From Candidatus Schekmanbacteria bacterium (GTDB lineage Bacteria; CSSED10-310; JACPHN01), in assembly GCA_016188575.1 (NCBI GenBank), contig JACPHN010000097.1, positions 10,606 to 74,605 on the forward strand: a stretch of 64,000 nucleotides of DNA, in the 5' to 3' direction. A program made the translations under genes and the position numbers. The notes beneath the pieces were generated by a model that saw only the letters and a list, made by a program, of their open reading frames with translations, had not been told where the DNA came from and did not search any database. Below, piece by piece: positions 23,594 to 34,859 of the stretch. Numbering within the stretch: the stretch's first letter is position 1; every line of letters begins with the position of its first letter.

Positions 23594-25807
23594 ATGACTG
23601 CGACTGCGCATCTGGAGAAATTCTCGTACGATGAAGACGTCGTCAGAAAGTTTGCACTGGCGACGGTCGTATGGGGCGTCGTCGGGATGCTCGTCGGCGT
23701 CGTTCTGGCGGTGGAGCTCTTCTTTCCCGCGGCAAGCCTCGGCCTGCCGTTTCTGACCTTCGGACGGCTGCGCCCACTTCATACCAATGCGGTGATCTTC
23801 GCTTTCGCCGGCAACGCTATCTTTGCCGCCATCTACTACTCGAGCCAGCGTCTCCTCAAGGCGCGCATGTTCAGCGACCTGCTCAGTCGGGTTCATTTCT
23901 GGGGCTGGCAACTGATCATCGTCTCCGCCGCCCTGACCTTGCCCCTGGGCATCACCCAGTCCAAGGAATACGCCGAGCTCGAGTGGCCTATCGACATCGC
24001 CATCGCCGTCATCTGGGTCGTCTTTGCGGTCAACCTCTTTGGGACGATCGCCAGGCGGCGTGAGCGCCACCTCTACGTGGCGATCTGGTTCTACATCGCC
24101 ACTGTGGTCACCGTCGCCATCCTGCACATCTTCAACAACCTCGTGGTGCCGGTCGAATTCCTCAAGAGCTACACGATCTACGCCGGCGTGCAGGATGCGT
24201 TCATGCAATGGTGGTACGGCCACAACGCGGTGGCGTTCTTCCTGACCACGCCATTCCTGGGTCTGATGTATTACTTCTTGCCGAAGGCCGCGGAACGTCC
24301 GGTCTTCTCGTACAAGCTCTCCATACTCCACTTCTGGACGCTCGTCTTTCTCTACATCTGGGCCGGACCGCACCATCTCCACTATACCGCCTTGCCTTCG
24401 TGGGCCTCCACGCTCGGCATGATCTTCTCGGTGATGCTGTGGATGCCCTCCTGGGGTGGCATGATCAACGGTCTGCTGACCCTGCGCGGCGCCTGGAACA
24501 AGGTCGCCGAGGAGCCGATCCTGAAGTTCTTCGTCGTGGGCGTCACGTTCTACGGGATGAGCACCTTCGAAGGCCCGATGATGTCGATCAAGACGGTCAA
24601 CGCGCTCTCTCACTATACCGACTGGACCATCGCCCACGCTCACGCCGGGGCGCTCGGGTGGAACGGATTCCTGACCTTCGGGATGCTCTACTGGCTGCTG
24701 CCGCGGCTATTCCAGACGCCATTGTGGAGCAAGAAGCTGTCAGGCGCTCATTTCTGGGTCGGAACGATCGGTATTCTACTCTACGTGGTCTCCATCTACA
24801 CCGCCGGAATCACGCAGGGGCTGATGTGGCGCGCGTTCGATGAGACGGGCAGACTCGCTTACCCCGACTTCGTGGAGACTGTCTTGCGCCTCGTTCCCAT
24901 GTATTGGGTGCGCGCGCTCGGCGGTCTGCTCTTCTTGACCGGCATCTTGATGCTCGGATTGAACATGCTGATGACCTGGAAGGCCCGGCCCGCGGCGTAT
25001 ACCGAGACGGTTTACGAGGCGCCTGCGCTCGCCGCCGAGCACGGCGACAGCGAGGCCGCCGCGGAGCCAGGCGCTTCCGCGTGGAAGCGGTTTGTCGGGA
25101 TTCGCTGGCACCGATCCTGGGAAGGCCTTCCGGTGACCTTCACCGTGCTCGTCGCCGTGGCCGTCATCGTGGCTTCCCTGTTTGAAATCGTGCCGCTGTT
25201 CCTGATCCGCTCAAACGTCCCCACGATCGCCGCGGTCAAGCCGTACACGCCGCTCGAAGTCGCCGGACGGGACATCTACGTTTCCGAGGGATGCTACAAC
25301 TGCCACTCGCAGATGGTCCGCCCGCTGCGTGCCGAAACCGAGCGGTACGGCGAGTACAGCAAGCCAGGCGAATTCGTCTACGACCATCCCTTCCAGTGGG
25401 GTTCCCGCCGGATCGGGCCGGACCTGCACCGGGTCGGTGGCAAGTATCCGCACCTTTGGCACGTCCGGCACATGCAAGATCCGCGCTCCACGACGCCGCA
25501 ATCGATCATGCCGCCCTATCCGTGGCTGCTCGAGGACGAGCTCGATTTCGCCGGCATTCAGCCCCGCGTCGACGTCCTCGCCATGCTTGGCGTTCCCTAC
25601 GGCGACGCCGTCGGACACGCCGAAGAGATGGCGAGAAAGCAGGCGCAGACCATCGCCGACGACGTCGCCTCCCAGGGGGGGCCGACCGGACTGGGGCAGC
25701 GGAAAATTGTCGCGCTGATCGCATACCTCCAGCGGCTCGGAATTGACATCAAAGGGCAACAGACCGCGGACGCTTCGGCGGCTCCGGTCGTCGTCACGAG
25801 AAACTAG
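23594..25807 (+). CDS. ccoNO: Fused cbb3 cytochrome c oxidase subunits I and II (CcoN-CcoO)
   Basis: 737 residues in one frame. Residues 1-475 are CcoN: a 12-helix haem-copper oxidase core with [27 protein letters not shown] and [17 protein letters not shown], which hold the haem b, b3 and CuB histidines. A linker (about 475-500) leads to CcoO: one membrane helix and a haem c site [12 protein letters not shown] (Cys about 567). The complex reduces O2 to water and pumps protons at low oxygen. CcoN and CcoO are normally separate genes; fusions are known in a few lineages. First gene of a tight nine-gene locus. Confidence 0.95.
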
Positions 25808-25819
25808 GGGAGCGCGGCG

Positions 25820-26074
25820 GTGTCGCTAGGGGACGTGATGGCGCAGGCGCGGCTCGAGCTCTTTGCAGAGATCGGGCTCATCATCTTCCTCGCGGTCTTT
25901 GTCACGATCGTGATTCATGTCTTTGTCGGCCGCGGACAGCATCAGGACGAGCTGCTCCGCATGCTGCCGCTCGCCGACGACACTGCCGAGAGCCGGACCG
26001 CGGACGCCACCATGTCCCCGCTGCCCACCGCCGCCGACAAGGAGCAGATCGATGAGCACGACAGAGCGCGATAG
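25820..26074 (+). CDS. ccoQ: CcoQ/FixQ-like small membrane subunit
   Basis: 84 residues, starting at GTG 25820 with AGGGGAG 7 nt upstream. One transmembrane helix (LFAEIGLIIFLAVFVTIVIH) followed by a short polar tail, as in CcoQ, which stabilises the oxidase and its interaction with CcoP. The tail is longer than usual. It overlaps ccoP by 23 bp. The assignment rests on position, size and topology. Confidence 0.75.
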   Translation: MSLGDVMAQARLELFAEIGLIIFLAVFVTIVIHVFVGRGQHQDELLRMLPLADDTAESRTADATMSPLPTAADKEQIDEHDRAR

Positions 26075-26633
26075 AGTTTTCGATCACGACTACGACGGTA
26101 TTCGGGAGTACGACAACCCATTACCGGCGTGGTGGCTGTGGATTTTCTACGCCACGATTGCCTTTTCGGGCGTCTACTTCCTATACTATCAGGTGACCGG
26201 CATGGGCCCCTCGATTCATCAGGAGTACCAGACGGACATGGCGGCAGCGGCCGAGCAGAAGGCGGCCGCACCCGTCCCGGCGGGTCCCACGGCGGCCACC
26301 CTGGCGCAGCTCGCGGCCGACGCCGCACAGGTCTCCGCGGGGCAGGCCGTGTTTGTTGCGCGCTGCGCTCCCTGCCACACACCAACGGGCGCGGGGCTCA
26401 TTGGGCCCAACCTCACCGATGACTACTGGATTCACGGAGATGGCAGTATCTCCGCGATCTACGCGGTCGTCCGTGATGGTGTGCCCGAAAAAGGCATGAT
26501 TCCGTGGAAAACTACGATTTCCGAAACCGAAATGATGCAAGTAACGGCGTTCGTCCACACCCTCCTCGGGACCAATCCGCCGGGCGCGAAGGAGCCGCAA
26601 GGCAACAAGATCGAGCGCCCAGCACAAAACTGA
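26052..26633 (+). CDS. ccoP: cbb3 oxidase subunit III (CcoP), monoheme form
   Basis: 193 residues. The N-terminus DHDYDGIREYDNPLPAWW followed by one transmembrane helix is the CcoP hallmark. Only one haem c motif is present (CAPCH, near residue 105), with methionines at KGMIPW as likely axial ligand. Standard CcoP proteins have two CXXCH and about 300 residues, so one cytochrome domain is absent. AAGGAG lies before the ATG at 26052, inside the end of ccoQ. It passes electrons from soluble cytochromes to CcoO. A separate cytochrome c at 50326 might complement it (inference). Confidence 0.9.
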   Translation: MSTTERDRVFDHDYDGIREYDNPLPAWWLWIFYATIAFSGVYFLYYQVTGMGPSIHQEYQTDMAAAAEQKAAAPVPAGPTAATLAQLAADAAQVSAGQAVFVARCAPCHTPTGAGLIGPNLTDDYWIHGDGSISAIYAVVRDGVPEKGMIPWKTTISETEMMQVTAFVHTLLGTNPPGAKEPQGNKIERPAQN

Positions 26634-26676
26634 TCGACGCCGCGCGCGGCGAAACCGCCGGGAGCGCCGTTACGGG

Positions 26677-26795
26677 CCTGAATCCACCGCCTGTGCCACT
26701 GCAAGCAGCGCTGAATGCGCATCGCGAAGACCACCCACCGCTCCTCCCCGCGCCAGTGGGCGGAGGGACGGGGGCGGATGGGCGGCGGATTCAGG
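26677..26795 (+). repeat. MITE-like 119-bp element, copy C of the dispersed repeat
   Basis: CCTGAATCCACCGCC (26677-26691) and, inverted, GGCGGCGGATTCAGG (26781-26795) match at 14 of 15 positions and bound a 119-bp segment. The interior is GC-rich and can itself fold (CCGCTCC against GGCGGAG). It lies 43 bases after the ccoP stop and overlaps the possible start region of ccoG. No transposase is encoded. Confidence 0.65.
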
Positions 26796-28219
26796 CGGGT
26801 GCTCAAAGCAGCGACGAGGGCCGCGCGCTATCGACGCTCAACCGCGACGGGTCGCGGCGCTGGCTCAATCCCCGCCCGAGCAGCGGCATCTTTTCACGGT
26901 ACCGGCGCGCCGTCGCGTGGGCGCTGATTGCCATCTTCACCGCGCTACCCCATCTGACGATCCGCGGACGCCCCATCCTGCTGCTCGACCTGCCGCATCG
27001 ACAGTTCACGATCCTCGGGGTCACGTTCTTGCCGACGGACACGGTTCTGTTGATGCTCCTCGGCCTGTCGCTGCTGATCGGGATCTTCGCCGTCACGGCG
27101 CTGTTCGGGCGTATCTGGTGCGGCTGGGCCTGCCCCCAGACCGTATACATGGAGCTCCTCTTTCGCCCGCTCGAACGACTGATCGCGGGGACGCCCGCGC
27201 AACAACGCTCGCAAACCGCAGCCGAGCGCCGGTTGCGCAGCCTGGTCAAGTACGGTGTCTACCTGGCTTGCTGCCTCTTCCTGGCGCACACTTTCCTGGC
27301 CTACTTTGTCCCGCCCGCCGAGCTGCTACAGTGGGTAACCTCGTCCCCGCGCGACCACCCCGCCGGATTCGCCGTCGTCATGATCACCACCGCGCTGATG
27401 ATGATCGACTTTGCGCTCTTTCGCGAGCAAATGTGCCTGGTTGCCTGCCCGTACGGCCGCTTTCAATCCGTGTTGCTGGACCGCCAATCGCTGATCGTCG
27501 GCTACGATTTCGCACGCGGCGAGCCGCGCTCAAAGCCCGGGCGCCGTTCTCCGGGTCAGCAGGAGCCGGCGGGAGGTGATTGCGTCGACTGTCGCGCCTG
27601 CGTGCTCACCTGTCCCACCGGGATCGATATTCGCGATGGCCTGCAGATGGAGTGCATCCACTGCACGCAATGCATCGACGCCTGCGATGCGATCATGTTG
27701 AAGATGGGCCGACCCCGCGGTCTGATCCGCTACTCGTCCAAGGCCGAGCTCGACGGGAGCCCGCGGCGGTTCGTGCGGCCGCGGCTCGTCGCGTACTGCG
27801 TGCTGCTTCTCCTGCTGTCGGGGGTGTTTGCCGCCGCGCTCGCGGAAAGAGGCCGGGCGGACGTGACGGTTCTTCGCGGTATCGGCGGCCCGTTCACCGC
27901 GACCGGCGACGGCCAGGTTGCGAACCAGATTCGCGTCAAGATTACCAACCGGACCGCTGCCGACCGCACCTACCGAATCGCGCTGCCAGACGCCGATGGG
28001 AGAGACACCGTCATCATTCCCGAGAACCCCTTGACCATCCAGAGCTTCAAGACGCGGGAGGCCACGGTCTTCATTCTCTCGCCGCATGACGCGTTCCCGG
28101 GCGGCCGGCGCGAAGCACGGTTTCGCGTCGACGACGAGGACGGCGTGGTGGCGGAGCCGGCGTATCGCCTCCTGGGTCCAGCCGGCGCGCCCGGGCAAGC
28201 GGGCCGAGCCGCACCATGA
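26693..28219 (+). CDS. ccoG: cbb3 oxidase accessory ferredoxin-like membrane protein CcoG
   Basis: Conserved CcoG sequence starts at STLNRDGSRRWLNPRPSSG (about base 26831). It includes LFGRIWCGWACPQTVYMELL, several membrane helices, and two 4Fe-4S motifs (CVDCRACVLTCPTGID and CIHCTQCIDACDAIM), then a C-terminal Ig-like domain. CcoG is implicated in copper reduction during cbb3 assembly. The start is uncertain: in-frame candidates are GTG 26693 or GTG 26756, both within the repeat element, without good ribosome sites; no ATG exists between ccoP and the conserved region. The stop overlaps ccoH by 4 bp. Confidence 0.9.
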   Translation: MPLQAALNAHREDHPPLLPAPVGGGTGADGRRIQAGAQSSDEGRALSTLNRDGSRRWLNPRPSSGIFSRYRRAVAWALIAIFTALPHLTIRGRPILLLDLPHRQFTILGVTFLPTDTVLLMLLGLSLLIGIFAVTALFGRIWCGWACPQTVYMELLFRPLERLIAGTPAQQRSQTAAERRLRSLVKYGVYLACCLFLAHTFLAYFVPPAELLQWVTSSPRDHPAGFAVVMITTALMMIDFALFREQMCLVACPYGRFQSVLLDRQSLIVGYDFARGEPRSKPGRRSPGQQEPAGGDCVDCRACVLTCPTGIDIRDGLQMECIHCTQCIDACDAIMLKMGRPRGLIRYSSKAELDGSPRRFVRPRLVAYCVLLLLLSGVFAAALAERGRADVTVLRGIGGPFTATGDGQVANQIRVKITNRTAADRTYRIALPDADGRDTVIIPENPLTIQSFKTREATVFILSPHDAFPGGRREARFRVDDEDGVVAEPAYRLLGPAGAPGQAGRAAP

Positions 28220-28716
28220 AGGCGGCGTGGGTCTGGCCGGCGATCATCGTCACCCTTCTGGCCGCGCACTGCTCGGTGACGGGGTTCCTCCTGGTCGCGG
28301 CAACGACGGATCCGTCATTTGCGGTCGAGGACCGGTATTACGAGAAGGCGCTGTCGTGGGACGCCGAGCTCGCCCAGCGAAAGCGAAATGACGAGCTGGG
28401 TTGGCGGCTGCTCGTGCAGCCGCCGGGTGGTCTTGCAGGTCTCGAGACGCAGGAGGTTCCGCTCGTGGTCCGGCTGACCGACCGCTCGGGCGCGCCCATT
28501 CAACAGGCCGAGGTCACCGTTGCCGCCTTCCACAACGCCCGGGCCGCGCAGGTCACGACCCGGGCGCTGCGAGAACGGGCGCCGGGGCAATACGAGGCGC
28601 TGTTTCCGTTCGTCCGCGCCGGCATCTGGGAGCTACGCTGCGCCGCGACGAGCCGCGGGCAGGTCTTTACCCGGGTGGTGCGGGCCACCTTGCCAGGCAC
28701 GGGGGACAGCGTGTGA
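28216..28716 (+). CDS. ccoH: FixH/CcoH-like assembly protein
   Basis: 166 residues. One N-terminal membrane helix (WPAIIVTLLAAHCSVTGFLL) and an extracytoplasmic beta-rich domain containing DRYYEKALSWD, characteristic of FixH. CcoH is needed for stable cbb3 assembly. The start ATG overlaps the ccoG stop (ATGA) and the end overlaps the next gene (GTGA), giving clear translational coupling. Confidence 0.88.
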   Translation: MKAAWVWPAIIVTLLAAHCSVTGFLLVAATTDPSFAVEDRYYEKALSWDAELAQRKRNDELGWRLLVQPPGGLAGLETQEVPLVVRLTDRSGAPIQQAEVTVAAFHNARAAQVTTRALRERAPGQYEALFPFVRAGIWELRCAATSRGQVFTRVVRATLPGTGDSV

Positions 28717-29417
28717 ACGAGTGGTCGATGACCGCGGTTTGCCTCGCGGCTTTCCTGGGAAGTGCGCACTGCGTGGGGATGTGTGGCCCGTTTGCGGGAC
28801 TTGCGGTCGGGAGCGCGCGTGCGGGCCGCGGTGGCAGTGGCGGCGGCGGCGCGGCACGGATCGCGGCGTATCAGGCGGGGAGGCTAGCGGCCTACGTGTC
28901 CCTTGGGGTTACCGCGGGCTGGCTTGGTTCCAGTTTCCTGGGATTCCTCGGCGACTTCGCTCGCTGGGCGGCCGTCGCGCTGGGGACGGTGATGATCGCC
29001 GTGGGAGCAGGCATGCTGGTGGGCGTCGGGCGCGGCTCTCCCCCGTGGTGGCGTGGCCGGCTGCTCGCCGGGGGGTTCGGCGCGGCGGTTGCCGGCGTCG
29101 CCCGCCGGGTGCGCGCGTGGCCGTCACTGCTTCGCGCGGCCGCGATTGGATCGTCGAGCGGGCTGCTACCGTGCGGCTGGCTCTATGGCTTCGTCGCAGT
29201 CGCCGCGGCGACTGCCGGTCCGCTTCGCGGCGGCGAGACGCTCTTTGCGTTCTGGCTCGGTTCCGCGCCCGCGCTCGTCGGCCTCGGCGCTGGCCTGACT
29301 CGCGTTCTCGCGCGCTTTTCCCGATACCGCCGAGTCGCATCCGGTGCGCTGCTGATCACCGCCGGTCTGGTCGCCATCGCCATGCGCGCCCACCTCGGCT
29401 CCCCCACCTGCCACTGA
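28713..29417 (+). CDS. SafE/TauE-type membrane protein of the cbb3 locus
   Basis: 234 residues; GTG at 28713 overlaps the ccoH stop. Six or so membrane helices, with conserved SAHCVGMCGPFAGL at the start and SGLLPCGWLYGFVA in the middle, the paired signature of the COG2836 (sulfite-exporter-like, DsbD_2-type) family. Members are common in cbb3 gene clusters next to ccoI and are thought to help copper or thiol handling. Exact substrate unknown. Confidence 0.85.
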   Translation: MNEWSMTAVCLAAFLGSAHCVGMCGPFAGLAVGSARAGRGGSGGGGAARIAAYQAGRLAAYVSLGVTAGWLGSSFLGFLGDFARWAAVALGTVMIAVGAGMLVGVGRGSPPWWRGRLLAGGFGAAVAGVARRVRAWPSLLRAAAIGSSSGLLPCGWLYGFVAVAAATAGPLRGGETLFAFWLGSAPALVGLGAGLTRVLARFSRYRRVASGALLITAGLVAIAMRAHLGSPTCH

Positions 29418-29434: not shown

Positions 29435-31936
29435 ATGCCGCACAGCACGGACGATTCCCAGGACTCCCGCTGTGCCCATTGCCGGCTCCCCGTGCCGCCG
29501 GCGCTGCTCCGTGCCGGCGCCGGCGAGCAGTTTTGCTGTCAGGGCTGCCGCACCGTTCATGCGGTACTGCACGAGCACGGCCTCGAGCGCTACTACGAGC
29601 TGGCGGCGGAGGCAGACCCGACGCCGCGGCCACCGGACGTCAGCGGCCGCTCCTTCGCGGAGCTCGACTCCGAGACCTTCCGGGAGCGCTACTGCACCGC
29701 TGTCCCTGGTGGCCTCCGCGCGGTCGAGCTGTACCTGGAGGGCGTCCACTGCATTGCCTGCCTCTGGCTCCTCGAAAACCTCGGTGCCGTCGTTGCTGGA
29801 GTGGGTTCGCTCCGCCTCGATTTCGGCCGCGCCGTGGCGCGCGTCGTCTGGAACCCCGACGAGGTTGCTCTCAGCGCGATCGCGCGCATGCTGGATCGCA
29901 TGGGGTATTTGCCCCACCCCTACCGCGCCCGCGACCTCCATGCACTGAGGCGGCGCGAAAACCGCGCTTTGCTGGCGAGAATCGGCGTTGCCGGCGCCGC
30001 CGCCGGAAACGTCATGTTGCTGTCCGTCGCGCTCTACGCGGGCCTGTTTACCGGCATCGACCCGGAGCTGCGGACGCTCTTCCGCTGGACCTCCCTCGCG
30101 GTCAGCCTGCCGGCGTCGCTGTGGGCGGGAAGCGTGTTTTTCCGGAATGCTCTCGCGGCTCTGCGCGTGCGCCGGGTCCACATGGACATTCCTATTGCGA
30201 TCGGCATTGCCGCGGGGCTCGCCGGCGGCGCCGTGAATACCGTATCGGGCACCGGCGAGATCTATTTCGATTCGATCATGACGCTCGTATTCCTGCTGCT
30301 CGTAGGCCGATGGCTGCAGCTCAGGGCGCAGCGGCGCGCCGCGGAGATCACCGAGCGGCGGCTATCGCTGGTGCCTTCGAGCGCGCGCCTGGTGGTCGGA
30401 GATGAGATCCAGGAGGTGCTGCTGGAGGCTCTGGTTCCCGGCGCCCTGGTGGAAGTTCGCGCCGGCGAGACGGTGCCGGCGGATGGCACCGTGAGCTCGG
30501 GCGAAACCGAGCTCGACGCCTCGATGCTGACGGGCGAAAGCGCGCCCCGGGTCGCGCGTGCGGCTGACACCTTGCTGGCGGGAATGATCAATCTGAGCGG
30601 GGCAATTCGCATGCGCGTGGACGCGGCCGGAGAGGAAACGCGCGTGGGTCGCTTGCTCGCGTCGGTGGCGGAGCACCAGCGGCGCCGGGCTCCCATCGTG
30701 TCCCTGGCGGATCGCGTATCGGGATACTTTGTTGCCGTCGTCCTGGTCGCCGCGGTCCTGACCTTCCTGGCGTGGTGGGAGGCGGGCGGTCCCGCAGTGG
30801 CGCTCGACCGCGCGCTCGCGTTGCTGATCGTAACCTGCCCATGCGCACTTGGCATGGCGACGCCGCTGGCCGTGTCGGCGGCGCTTGGCAAGGCCGCCGC
30901 CGCCGGCATTCTGATCCGCGGCGGCGACGCGCTGGAGTCGCTCTCGCGATGCGGCAGGATGTGGCTCGACAAGACCGGCACCTTGACCGAGGGAAAGCTC
31001 CGCCTCGAATCGTGGGTGGGAGCGGACGCGGTGCTTCGCCGCCTCAGGCGCGCGGAGGCCGAATCCGCACACCCAATTGCCGCGGCACTGCGCCGCGGCG
31101 CCGGCGCCGGCGGTCCCGCGGACATTGCACGCGCGGCAGGCATGCCGGAGCCCGAGCTGAGCCGCTGCGAACAGGTGCTCGGTGCCGGTCTGCGCGCTAC
31201 GGTTGACGGCCGCGAGCTGGTTGCGGGGAGCCCGGCTTTCGTCGCCGGTGAGATCCCCGGCGCCTTCCCGGCCTGGGTCGACGCCTGCGTGCGCGCCGCG
31301 GCGGCCGCCGGCCAGACGCCGGTGGTGGTTGCGGAGAGCGGGATCCCTGAAGGCGTTGCCGTGCTGGCCGACGCGCTTCATGCGGACGCGGAGGAAATGG
31401 TTGCCAGGCTCGGCGAGCGCGGGTGGCAGGTGGGGATTCTCTCGGGCGACCACCCGGAGGCCGTGAAATCAGTTGCCGCGACGCTCGGCATCGCGCGCGA
31501 CGAGGCGTTCGGCGGGCTGACCCCGGAGCAAAAGCGGGACGTCGTCGCACGCGGGGGCGACGGCGGAGTCGTCGTCATGGTGGGCGACGGGATCAACGAC
31601 GCCGCTGCCCTCGGTGCCGCTCAGGTCGGCATTTCGGTGCACGGCGGCGCCGAGGCCAGCCTGCAGGCGGCCGACGTCTTCTTGCAGCGCCCCGGGCTTC
31701 GACCCATAATCGAGCTTCTGGACGGTGCGCGGCGATCACTCGGCGCCGTCCGCCGTAATCTGGCCATCTCGCTTCTCTACAACCTGGTCGCGGGAGCTCT
31801 CGCGATGTCCGGCCTCATTCACCCGCTGATCGCGGCCGTGCTGATGCCGCTCAGCTCGCTGACGGTCGTCAGCCTCTCGTTTCGCGCGCGCACCTTCGAG
31901 GCGGCGGCGGAGCGCTCAGGAAGGCGTGCTCAATGA
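29435..31936 (+). CDS. ccoI: Copper-type P1B ATPase for cbb3 assembly (CcoI)
   Basis: 833 residues from ATG 29435. N-terminal Cys cluster (CAHC, FCCQGC) and a heavy-metal-binding domain with CIAC are typical of CcoI. The ATPase core has TGES, the intramembrane TCPCALG metal site, the phosphorylation motif DKTGTLTEG (Asp about 512) and VGDGINDAAAL. CcoI moves copper across the inner membrane for the CuB centre. The frame is open far upstream, but that region codes for the previous genes. It overlaps ccoS by 4 bp. Confidence 0.95.
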   Translation: MPHSTDDSQDSRCAHCRLPVPPALLRAGAGEQFCCQGCRTVHAVLHEHGLERYYELAAEADPTPRPPDVSGRSFAELDSETFRERYCTAVPGGLRAVELYLEGVHCIACLWLLENLGAVVAGVGSLRLDFGRAVARVVWNPDEVALSAIARMLDRMGYLPHPYRARDLHALRRRENRALLARIGVAGAAAGNVMLLSVALYAGLFTGIDPELRTLFRWTSLAVSLPASLWAGSVFFRNALAALRVRRVHMDIPIAIGIAAGLAGGAVNTVSGTGEIYFDSIMTLVFLLLVGRWLQLRAQRRAAEITERRLSLVPSSARLVVGDEIQEVLLEALVPGALVEVRAGETVPADGTVSSGETELDASMLTGESAPRVARAADTLLAGMINLSGAIRMRVDAAGEETRVGRLLASVAEHQRRRAPIVSLADRVSGYFVAVVLVAAVLTFLAWWEAGGPAVALDRALALLIVTCPCALGMATPLAVSAALGKAAAAGILIRGGDALESLSRCGRMWLDKTGTLTEGKLRLESWVGADAVLRRLRRAEAESAHPIAAALRRGAGAGGPADIARAAGMPEPELSRCEQVLGAGLRATVDGRELVAGSPAFVAGEIPGAFPAWVDACVRAAAAAGQTPVVVAESGIPEGVAVLADALHADAEEMVARLGERGWQVGILSGDHPEAVKSVAATLGIARDEAFGGLTPEQKRDVVARGGDGGVVVMVGDGINDAAALGAAQVGISVHGGAEASLQAADVFLQRPGLRPIIELLDGARRSLGAVRRNLAISLLYNLVAGALAMSGLIHPLIAAVLMPLSSLTVVSLSFRARTFEAAAERSGRRAQ

Positions 31937-33219
31937 GCACCGTCTATATCATTTTGCCGTTGGCGCTGATGCTCGGGGGACTCGCTCTTGCGGCGTTCAT
32001 TGCAGCCCTGCGCAGCGGCCAGTTCGACGACCTCCAGACGCCGGCCATGCGCATCCTCCTGGACGAGGCAACCCACCAGCGGCCCGCGCGGTTGAGCACC
32101 GTTGCGAGTCGCGAGACCACCGAGCCCCCAGGCCAGGGCGGCAGCCCCACCCCCCGCGATTTCCTCGCGCCACCGCATGAGCACGGGCCGGAGCGACCTG
32201 TCGACCTCGTGACGGGCGCGACCGGGCTGGTCGGCGGCAACCTGGTGCGCGAGCTCGTGGGGCGAGGCGAGCGCGTGCGCGTCCTGGCGCGCTTGACCTC
32301 GCGGCAGGGACATCTTGCGGAGCTGGCCGGCATCGAATGGGTGCAGGGCGACATTACGGACGCCGCCTCGCTTTCCGCGGCATGCGCCGGTATCCGGCGT
32401 GTCTATCATTGCGCGGCCCTGGTCTCGATGTGGCCGGGCGATGCCGGCGCCATGATGGCGGTGAACGCCGGCGGCACGGAGAACATGCTGGCCGCGGCGC
32501 GCGCGGGTGGCGTGGAGCGGTTTGTCCATTGCAGCTCCGTCGACGCGATCGGCCTGCCGGAACCGGGTGGCCCGCCGGCCACGGAATCCACGCCCTGGAA
32601 CTGGGAGCACATGGGCGTCGCGACGGGGTACGCCCGGAGCAAACTGGCGGCCCAGGACCGCGTGCTCGCCGCGGTTGCCCAGGGGCTCGACGCCGTGATC
32701 GTCAATCCCGCCCTGATGTTCGGACCTTACGACCAGAAACCGTCCAGCGGCCGAATGATCCTGGAGGTGGCCCGCGGGTGGCTCGTGGCCTTTCCCGGCG
32801 GGGGCAACAACGTCGTGGACGTCCGGGACGTCGCCGCCGCCATGGTCGCTGCGGCCGAGCGCGGCCGGTGCGGCGAGCTGTATATTCTCGGCAACGCCAA
32901 CATGACCTACCGGGAGATTTTCTCGGTCATGGCGGACGTCACCGGCGTCGCACCGCCGTGGCTGCCCGTCCCGCGCCTGGTAGGAATCGCTGCGGGCATG
33001 GCCGCCGAGGCGTTCGGGTGGCTGACTGGTAAGCCGGTCGAGCTCAACCGCGAGAGCGCCCGCATGGGTTTCGTCGAGCACTACTACGATGCGAGCAAGG
33101 CCCGGCGCGAGCTGGGGCTGGCGGCATCGCCGGTGCGCGGGGCCGTGGAGAGCGCGGTGGCGTGGCTGCGGAGTCAGCGCATGTTGCCGCCCGCAAGCGC
33201 GCCATTCATCGGGCGCTGA
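31933..33219 (+). CDS. ccoS: CcoS fused to an NAD-dependent epimerase / 3beta-HSD domain
   Basis: 428 residues in one open frame. Residues 1-45 are a complete CcoS: one helix (IILPLALMLGGLALAAFIAA), then RSGQFDDLQTPAMRILLDE. After a 40-residue Pro/Thr-rich linker, residues 90-428 form an extended-type SDR with TGATGLVGGNLV (Rossmann loop) and later 3beta-HSD-like features. The candidate catalytic Tyr/Lys are in YARSK (about residues 235-239). No ATG or GTG with a ribosome site separates the two parts. CcoS is needed for cofactor insertion into cbb3. The SDR substrate is unknown; it would face the cytoplasm. Start overlaps ccoI (ATGA). Confidence 0.85.
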   Translation: MSTVYIILPLALMLGGLALAAFIAALRSGQFDDLQTPAMRILLDEATHQRPARLSTVASRETTEPPGQGGSPTPRDFLAPPHEHGPERPVDLVTGATGLVGGNLVRELVGRGERVRVLARLTSRQGHLAELAGIEWVQGDITDAASLSAACAGIRRVYHCAALVSMWPGDAGAMMAVNAGGTENMLAAARAGGVERFVHCSSVDAIGLPEPGGPPATESTPWNWEHMGVATGYARSKLAAQDRVLAAVAQGLDAVIVNPALMFGPYDQKPSSGRMILEVARGWLVAFPGGGNNVVDVRDVAAAMVAAAERGRCGELYILGNANMTYREIFSVMADVTGVAPPWLPVPRLVGIAAGMAAEAFGWLTGKPVELNRESARMGFVEHYYDASKARRELGLAASPVRGAVESAVAWLRSQRMLPPASAPFIGR

Positions 33220-34045
33220 TTCCCGAACGGACAGGTCCGCCTGCCGGTGCGCCGAGAAAGTCGACGCGGTCCGTGAACAGATAGGGAAAGCCGCGATTCC
33301 GAAAGGCGACAGCGGTGCTCGGCCAGTTGATGAAGCCGACGCCTTCCACCAGGCCGTGTCGGTGAAGGAGCTGGCGGCAACCCTCCGGAAATGCCGCGTA
33401 CCAGCCGACGAGCCCCGTGTCGCGGCAGTGCTCGACGTATTCTCGGGCGCGCCGCGGTGAGGCCAGGAAGATCAGCGCTCTTGTCGCTTCCGGGAAAACG
33501 TCGCGCACGACGTCGATCACCGCCGTGTCCAGACTGATCAGCGTGCACTTCGCGACGAGACCGCGTGCGCACAGTGCGTCGCGAACCAGGCCGACCAACG
33601 TGCGGAGCTTCGCGCCGATGTGCTTGACCTCGATGAAAATCGCCGGAGCCGCGTCGCCAAGCTGCGCGAGCACCTCGCCCAGGGTGGGAACCGCCGGGGC
33701 CGCGGCCCGAAGCTCGGCGACGGAGAGGGCCGATACGAGCTCCGAGCGGCCGTGAGCTCTGCTCAGCGAAGCGTCGTGGCACACGACCACCACGTCGTCC
33801 GCGGTCAGCCTGACGTCAAGCTCGAAGCCCGCGCCGCGGTCGACCGCGAGCTGGAACGCACCCAGCGTATTCTCAACTACGGACGGGTGCCCGGTCAGGC
33901 CGCGGTGGCCGACCAGAGTCGGCGCTGCGACGCTACTGAGCACCGTGCGCCGTGGCCACGCGTACACCGCGTCGAAGACCCGCCGGGCCTTGTCGTAGAG
34001 CAGGTTCTCCGCGATTCTTTCGATCAGCGTAGCGGGTTCCGCCAC
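33206..34045 (-). CDS. Glycerophosphodiester phosphodiesterase family protein
   Basis: 279 residues. GTG at 34045 has AGGAGGT 5 nt upstream; longer readings of the frame run into the upstream gene. Motifs: GHRGLTGHPSVVENTLGAF, FELDVRLTADD and VVCHDASLSR, which carry the metal- and acid-base residues of the GDPD TIM barrel (His-Arg, Glu-Asn, Glu-x-Asp, His-Asp). It hydrolyses glycerophosphodiesters to glycerol-3-phosphate and an alcohol. No signal peptide. Its 3' end overlaps the convergent ccoS-epimerase gene by 14 bp. Confidence 0.9.
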   Translation of the reverse strand: MAEPATLIERIAENLLYDKARRVFDAVYAWPRRTVLSSVAAPTLVGHRGLTGHPSVVENTLGAFQLAVDRGAGFELDVRLTADDVVVVCHDASLSRAHGRSELVSALSVAELRAAAPAVPTLGEVLAQLGDAAPAIFIEVKHIGAKLRTLVGLVRDALCARGLVAKCTLISLDTAVIDVVRDVFPEATRALIFLASPRRAREYVEHCRDTGLVGWYAAFPEGCRQLLHRHGLVEGVGFINWPSTAVAFRNRGFPYLFTDRVDFLGAPAGGPVRSGISAR

Positions 34046-34055
34046 CGGCCACCTC

Positions 34056-34859
34056 CTAAACCGCCTCACGGCGGTGCATTTGCTCGATGATGAGGTTCCT
34101 GACGCGCTCGGGCGCGGGAATCTTGTACAGGACGTACATGCTGAGCTCGCGGGGGACGTTGACGGTCTTGCCTCCGGCGGCGAAGAGGCCGGCGCCGGCC
34201 AGACGGGAACCGCCGCGAACGTCGACGCCCGCCACCGCCAAATCCTGGCCCATACCGATGCCGGTGGCGGTAACCGGAATGACCGTGCCGAAACCGACGA
34301 GCCGACCGAACAGGCTCCGCGATAGCAGGAGGTCGTCGATCTTCGAGAAAAACGTGTTGCGCTCGCTGAGGCGGAGCCGGCCGAAGCGTGCGATGATGCG
34401 ATGGCTCGTGACGTAGTACCGGTGGCCGCGGCGAAAGATCTCACAGCCCACGACACCGAGCAGGCCTACCGCGATCAGCATGAGGTTTTCGAGGTGCGGG
34501 TAGTGGGGAAGCGCGAGCTGAGGCTCGACGTAGCACCGAAGCAGGAGGTGTCCCGCCGTCAGCGCCAGCAAGGTGAGCACGTAGCCGAAGCGCACCTGAC
34601 GGAGCGCCATGACCACCATCGGGACGAGCACCGCGGTGAACCAGACGACCGAGTAGAAATGGCTGCTCAGGAGCTCGCCAAGCGGCAACCGGGTGGGAAC
34701 CAGGAGCAGGTCGTCGCGCCAGATGATGAACGACGCTCCGAGCGCCGCGGTTCCGAGCCAGAAGAGCATCAAGCCGACCATCGCGAAGACGTGCGGGCGC
34801 GTCGCGCACAGCAGGTGCTCGCCGGTCGCGAGCGCGAACGGCAGGCGCTCACTCGACAC
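34056..34859 (-). CDS. Bacterial PH-domain (DUF304-like) membrane protein
   Basis: 267 residues, GTG start. Three or four membrane helices in residues 20-150, then a PH-like domain containing YYVTSHRIIARFGRLRLSER and FFSKIDDLLLSRSLFGRLVGFG, the bPH2 signature. These proteins are thought to act in membrane or stress functions; the specific role is unknown. It overlaps the upstream gene by 11 bp and the GDPD gene follows 10 bp after, so the three form an operon. Confidence 0.78.
   Translation of the reverse strand: MSSERLPFALATGEHLLCATRPHVFAMVGLMLFWLGTAALGASFIIWRDDLLLVPTRLPLGELLSSHFYSVVWFTAVLVPMVVMALRQVRFGYVLTLLALTAGHLLLRCYVEPQLALPHYPHLENLMLIAVGLLGVVGCEIFRRGHRYYVTSHRIIARFGRLRLSERNTFFSKIDDLLLSRSLFGRLVGFGTVIPVTATGIGMGQDLAVAGVDVRGGSRLAGAGLFAAGGKTVNVPRELSMYVLYKIPAPERVRNLIIEQMHRREAV

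Follow-up and report, generated by a model that had tools for sequence, protein, structure and literature searches.

Introduction

The CcoS protein is required for the loading of haem b and CuB into CcoN of the cbb3 oxidase, as work on R. capsulatus and C. jejuni has shown, and in the latter it supports copper supply together with CcoI (PMC8267372). Here a gene is described from Candidatus Schekmanbacteria bacterium (assembly GCA_016188575.1) in which ccoS continues in frame into an extended short-chain dehydrogenase/reductase (SDR). The gene lies within the window, which is the entire stretch of 64,000 nucleotides that was analyzed (contig JACPHN010000097.1, positions 10,606 to 74,605), and it shares with CcoS/FixS the whole domain, the motif RSGQFDDLQTPAMRIL and a place directly after ccoI. 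In contrast, the CcoS copies that were read in other genomes are stand-alone proteins of 41-86 amino acids counted from the start of the domain, whereas an enzyme of 330 amino acids is appended here. No paper on a CcoS fusion was found in the literature searched.

Among NCBIfam families, the SDR part matches HpnA best, the hopanoid-associated sugar epimerase (TIGR03466; 290.7 bits, positions 4-326 of 327). However, this score falls below the family cutoff of 367.65 and the fused SDR groups instead with stand-alone SDRs that bear no family name. HpnA has no demonstrated reaction, and in Burkholderia cenocepacia hpnA is reported to be non-essential for making bacteriohopanetetrol (PMC5462960). 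A search of the Schekmanbacteria genome, which is 93.8% complete, for squalene-hopene cyclase yielded only a partial match of 21.5 bits against a cutoff of 431.1. As no hopene cyclase exceeded the cutoff, a hopanoid role is unlikely, and the link was rejected on this ground together with the missed HpnA cutoff.

The closest solved structure is that of Gox2253 (PDB 3wj7), a putative oxidoreductase with 38% identity, a Z of 37.8 and a root-mean-square deviation of 3.9 over 326 residues, which differs in being a single-domain protein; no paper on Gox2253 was found in the literature searched. Epimerases and reductases of the cinnamoyl-CoA type followed at similar Z values, so that epimerase and reductase cannot be told apart by their fold alone. 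Nearest in sequence is an SDR subfamily with the signature GPYDxKPSSG (L002, L003, L004, L005 and L064), which shares 44-49% identity, motifs and clade with the fused SDR, but whose members are stand-alone proteins around which no cco genes were found.

CcoS and an extended SDR in one open frame

The gene is rather probably a genuine fusion private to its lineage that is translated as one chain from the ccoS start, in which the SDR is a passenger at the membrane and not a step in oxidase assembly. The features of the fused gene are as follows.

31918-31924, plus strand: Shine-Dalgarno-like AGGAAGG, with the ATG of the fused gene 8 nt downstream
31933-33219, plus strand: ccoS-SDR fused gene, a single open frame from ATG to TGA of 428 amino acids, calculated mass 45.0 kDa
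31933-32067, plus strand: CcoS (FixS) part, residues 1-45, with a transmembrane helix predicted in the structure model at residues 2-27
32074-32190, plus strand: linker, residues 48-86, rich in P, R, T and G and predicted to be disordered
32177-32180, plus strand: out-of-frame ATG seen in the three-frame translation (frame 2; MSTGRSDLSTS and then a stop), which overlaps the frame-3 TGA at 32178 as ATGA, ~20 nt upstream of the first strand of the SDR
32200-33183, plus strand: extended SDR domain, residues 90-417, placed by Pfam, NCBIfam, PDB and fold matches and by alignment

A preliminary description of the locus had proposed that a complete CcoS and a complete extended SDR are fused in frame inside the cco cluster, and profile searches with both halves bear this out. 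The FixS family (PF03597) matched residues 2-45 over all 44 model positions with an E-value of 4.8e-17 and 61.8 bits (cutoff 23.1), and the cutoff of the NCBIfam ccoS model (TIGR00847) was also exceeded at 53.1 versus 28.35. The Pfam Epimerase family matched residues 92-320 over positions 2-240 of 240 with an E-value of 2.7e-37 and 128.9 bits (cutoff 20.9). Chance matches are excluded for both domains. The motifs cited in the same description were located at residues 27 (RSGQFDDL), 94 (the nucleotide motif) and 233 (YARSK), and its expectation of a 46-kDa product requires only a slight downward adjustment to the calculated mass given above.

In the CcoS part the GQFDDL motif (27-34) follows the N-terminal helix as in CcoS, and the segment shares 64-67% identity with stand-alone CcoS in records of Phycisphaerae, Myxococcales and SAR324; no solved structure was matched by the sequence of this part. 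The fused copy is the sole CcoS found in the 9.2-Mb genome, which is distributed over 275 contigs. As the CcoS part is both complete and the only copy, it probably still does the job of CcoS.

The SDR part has the features of an extended SDR, namely a TGxxGxxG nucleotide-binding motif (TGATGLVGG, 94-102), a serine (Ser201/202), YxxxK (Tyr233 and Lys237) and a Rossmann fold. With the nucleotide motif and catalytic residues retained, the enzyme should be active, and it probably acts as an HpnA/Gox2253-type reductase or dehydrogenase. A supported clade (bootstrap 99, approximate likelihood ratio test 97) unites it with stand-alone SDRs of four genomes (G021, G027, G042 and G047).

The positions of possible starts argue that the join is real. 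Relatives of the fused SDR begin 2-6 residues ahead of LVTG and the first strand, and no ATG, GTG or TTG is present in frame at that position. The in-frame internal candidates are ATG 32048, within CcoS, and TTG 32092; neither these nor the out-of-frame ATG 32177 are preceded by a Shine-Dalgarno-like site, and the sole such site is that before the CcoS start. The sequence TGAGCAC is repeated at the three possible starts, which looks like chance; there are 10 plus-strand copies in the window. In addition, the first strand of the SDR (90-94) is encoded in the ccoS frame and modelled with a predicted local distance difference test (pLDDT) value of about 98, which also was counted in favor of the join. 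The gene is located in the middle of the contig, at about 42.5-43.8 kb of 74.6 kb, and the window contains no N. Tetranucleotide composition correlates between the two sides of the join (r 0.87), as does codon usage between the cco genes and the SDR (r 0.90). A chimeric assembly was rejected because neither composition nor codon usage changes at the join.

A single structure model covers both the CcoS and SDR parts. Within it, the SDR fold is modelled with confidence, whereas pLDDT is <50 across residues 48-84, so that the proline-rich linker of ~40 residues is predicted to be disordered. Stand-alone CcoS proteins themselves often possess disordered-looking tails that bring the total length to 76-86 amino acids. 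A long tail is therefore normal for the family, and the linker resembles such a tail running on.

We infer that the gene is expressed as one chain, with the topology set out below, an active enzyme and two functions that are independent of each other. In the proposed course of events, the ccoS stop codon would have been lost beside a transposed or acquired SDR gene, resulting in read-through into an unrelated extended SDR. Translation would proceed from the ccoS start only, and the CcoS helix would fix the chain in the membrane such that the C-terminus is cytoplasmic. The cytoplasmic tethering of the SDR by this helix, which the preliminary description also envisaged, is suggested by the model and by the positive charge (arginine) that follows the helix. 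The CcoS part would retain its role in oxidase maturation through cofactor loading of CcoN, and the disordered linker would let the soluble NAD(P)-dependent SDR fold at the cytoplasmic face.

Search for the fusion in other genomes

The CcoS domain was sought in ~1,300 other genomes, comprising 386 from across the domain, 195 presumed from the members of their phylum to be Myxococcota, 395 from the phylum of G209 (assigned to Gemmatimonadota because its member G667 carries the contig of L053), 345 presumed Pseudomonadota and a few from small phyla. CcoS was present in ~440 of these. The copies considered are those among the matches listed, below which rank about 80 more from the last of the large phyla. 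As a fusion with an SDR would require an open frame of >350 codons, the copies that were read out were the strong listed ones with frames of about 200 codons or more, plus a few shorter ones, at or above ~30 bits. All 53 loci read out among the strong copies listed encode stand-alone CcoS and none a second CcoS-SDR fusion. The preliminary description had suggested a look for the same fusion in related genomes, and no other was seen among the copies listed from these ~440 genomes. Long frames around CcoS elsewhere, up to 1047 amino acids, were rejected as fusions; they extend upstream of CcoS and overlap the preceding gene out of frame. Among eight genomes of the same phylum, one other possesses CcoS (G002), which is stand-alone and divergent.

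Searches with the fused protein gave a concordant picture. In the 386 genomes the matches were to the SDR only, with a best identity of 49% and none that extended to CcoS. The plasmid search likewise produced SDR-only matches and no fusion, no fusion was found in viral contigs, and a scan of genome contigs returned matches that were either SDR-only or CcoS-only.

Genes around the SDR and CcoS were compared also. None of the other cco loci that were read has an SDR of the fused kind beside ccoS, and in two genomes (G182 and G134) CcoS and an SDR of this kind are on separate contigs. The neighbors of the nearest SDRs differ from one another: a histidine kinase and a MobA-like gene; an FAD-binding oxidase-like gene; a di-haem peroxidase and a DsbD-like gene; a nucleoside kinase; and a cytidylate kinase-like gene. 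No common genomic partner was found among the loci read. The absence of linkage elsewhere, with no shared neighbors and with separate contigs in G182 and G134, argues for a passenger SDR.

Two further observations were made on SDR neighborhoods. At L062:7236-10977, a stand-alone SDR of the nearest subfamily adjoins a MauG/CCP di-haem peroxidase gene and has a DsbD-thioredoxin gene on its other flank. In nine Chitinophaga loci (L025-L030, L036, L037 and L046), a distant SDR relative is situated ~10 kb away from ccoS and is encoded on the other strand. The latter was rejected as a precursor of the fusion owing to this distance and orientation and to the hemN- and lpxD-like genes that separate the SDR from the cco cluster in L025, the one locus read.

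Alternative readings of the join

Several points weigh against a genuine passenger fusion. It is represented by one sequence only, with no second genome in which selection on the joined form could be gauged, and a 45-kDa form that replaces stand-alone CcoS is unusual. A single assembly leaves room for a base-level error in the linker region (32068-32196). The codon scores in the linker favor the fused frame only weakly, at -0.15 per codon versus -0.44 and -0.67 in the other two frames, and at ~32128-32160 the score of frame 2 is as good as that of frame 1. Moreover, ATG 32177 is possibly the relic of a separate start, or chance.

One alternative, which we judge to be unlikely, is that ccoS and the SDR gene are really two adjacent genes whose join is a base-level error, a recent frameshift or a stop loss. 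This alternative accords with the stand-alone state of every CcoS read out elsewhere, with the weak codon evidence in the linker, and with the frame-2 stop at 32093 and the overlap of ATG 32177 with the stop at 32178. However, a normal pair of genes is not restored by one insertion or deletion. A shift upstream of 32093 would produce a CcoS of 54 amino acids, but the SDR would then have a TTG start that lacks a ribosome-binding site, together with a long N-terminal extension that sets it apart from its relatives. Use of ATG 32177 requires a second change, and there too a ribosome-binding site is missing. The mid-contig location of the gene and the uninterrupted bases around it also speak against an artefact.

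A functional coupling, in which the SDR carries out a redox or cofactor-related step (for haem, copper or lipid) where cbb3 maturation takes place, is improbable. That the fused gene is the only CcoS and that its start overlaps the ccoI stop are consistent with such coupling, as is the one nearest-subfamily SDR that adjoins genes for a di-haem peroxidase and a DsbD-like protein. In opposition are the lack of a second fusion and of a fused-kind SDR beside ccoS in the other loci read, and the inconsistent partners of the nearest SDRs. The haem-related or maturation enzyme suggested in the preliminary description is possible, yet finds no support in these data. We strongly doubt that a cbb3 assembly factor took on an NAD(P)H-dependent SDR as a covalently attached domain, thereby linking oxidase maturation to the redox state of the cell or to a membrane-located step on a small molecule. 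As nothing was found that ties SDR activity to oxidase assembly, the passenger reading is favored. It is also very unlikely that the fusion is an expression device with two products, in which the linker is cleaved or TTG 32092 additionally yields a free SDR, since the 40-residue disordered linker and in-frame TTG that might permit this are accompanied by no ribosome-binding site at 32092.

The gene is a real-looking fusion between members of two known families, of which no second example has been seen so far; it is of interest as an oddity and argues only weakly for a new maturation enzyme. Such a protein, a natural CcoS that carries a large cytoplasmic domain, would demonstrate that the CcoS C-terminus lies free in the cytoplasm and can bear cargo. 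Were the two parts to work together, the fusion would hint at an activity that partners CcoS. Since it is one case and linkage was not found elsewhere, its value lies chiefly in being a curiosity and a tool for experiments on topology.

The cbb3 cluster and flanking genes

The fused gene closes an ordinary cbb3 oxidase cluster, whose order is ccoNO, ccoQ, ccoP, ccoG, ccoH, a gene for a sulfite-exporter-like membrane protein, ccoI and the fused gene.

29435-31936, plus strand: ccoI (copper P-type ATPase), matched by tblastn to ccoI in related cco clusters; its stop codon TGA shares bases with the ATG that starts the fused gene (ATGA)
23594-29417, plus strand: remaining cluster from ccoNO (23594-25807) to the sulfite-exporter-like membrane protein, with order and similarity as in Gemmatimonadota loci L053 and L059

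The cluster order matches that of the Gemmatimonadota loci, to which CcoNO is 72-73% identical. CcoN and CcoO constitute one frame of 737 codons (23594-25807, plus strand). A continuous CcoNO match also is present in loci of Gemmatimonadota, Planctomycetota, SAR324, Myxococcales and Chitinophaga, and the arrangement is therefore common. Downstream, a glycerophosphodiesterase-like frame (33206-34456, minus strand) is convergent with the fused gene and overlaps its 3′ end by 14 nt. As the first ~150 residues of this frame overlap a bacterial PH-domain gene (34056-34859, minus strand), its true start is probably near 34003.
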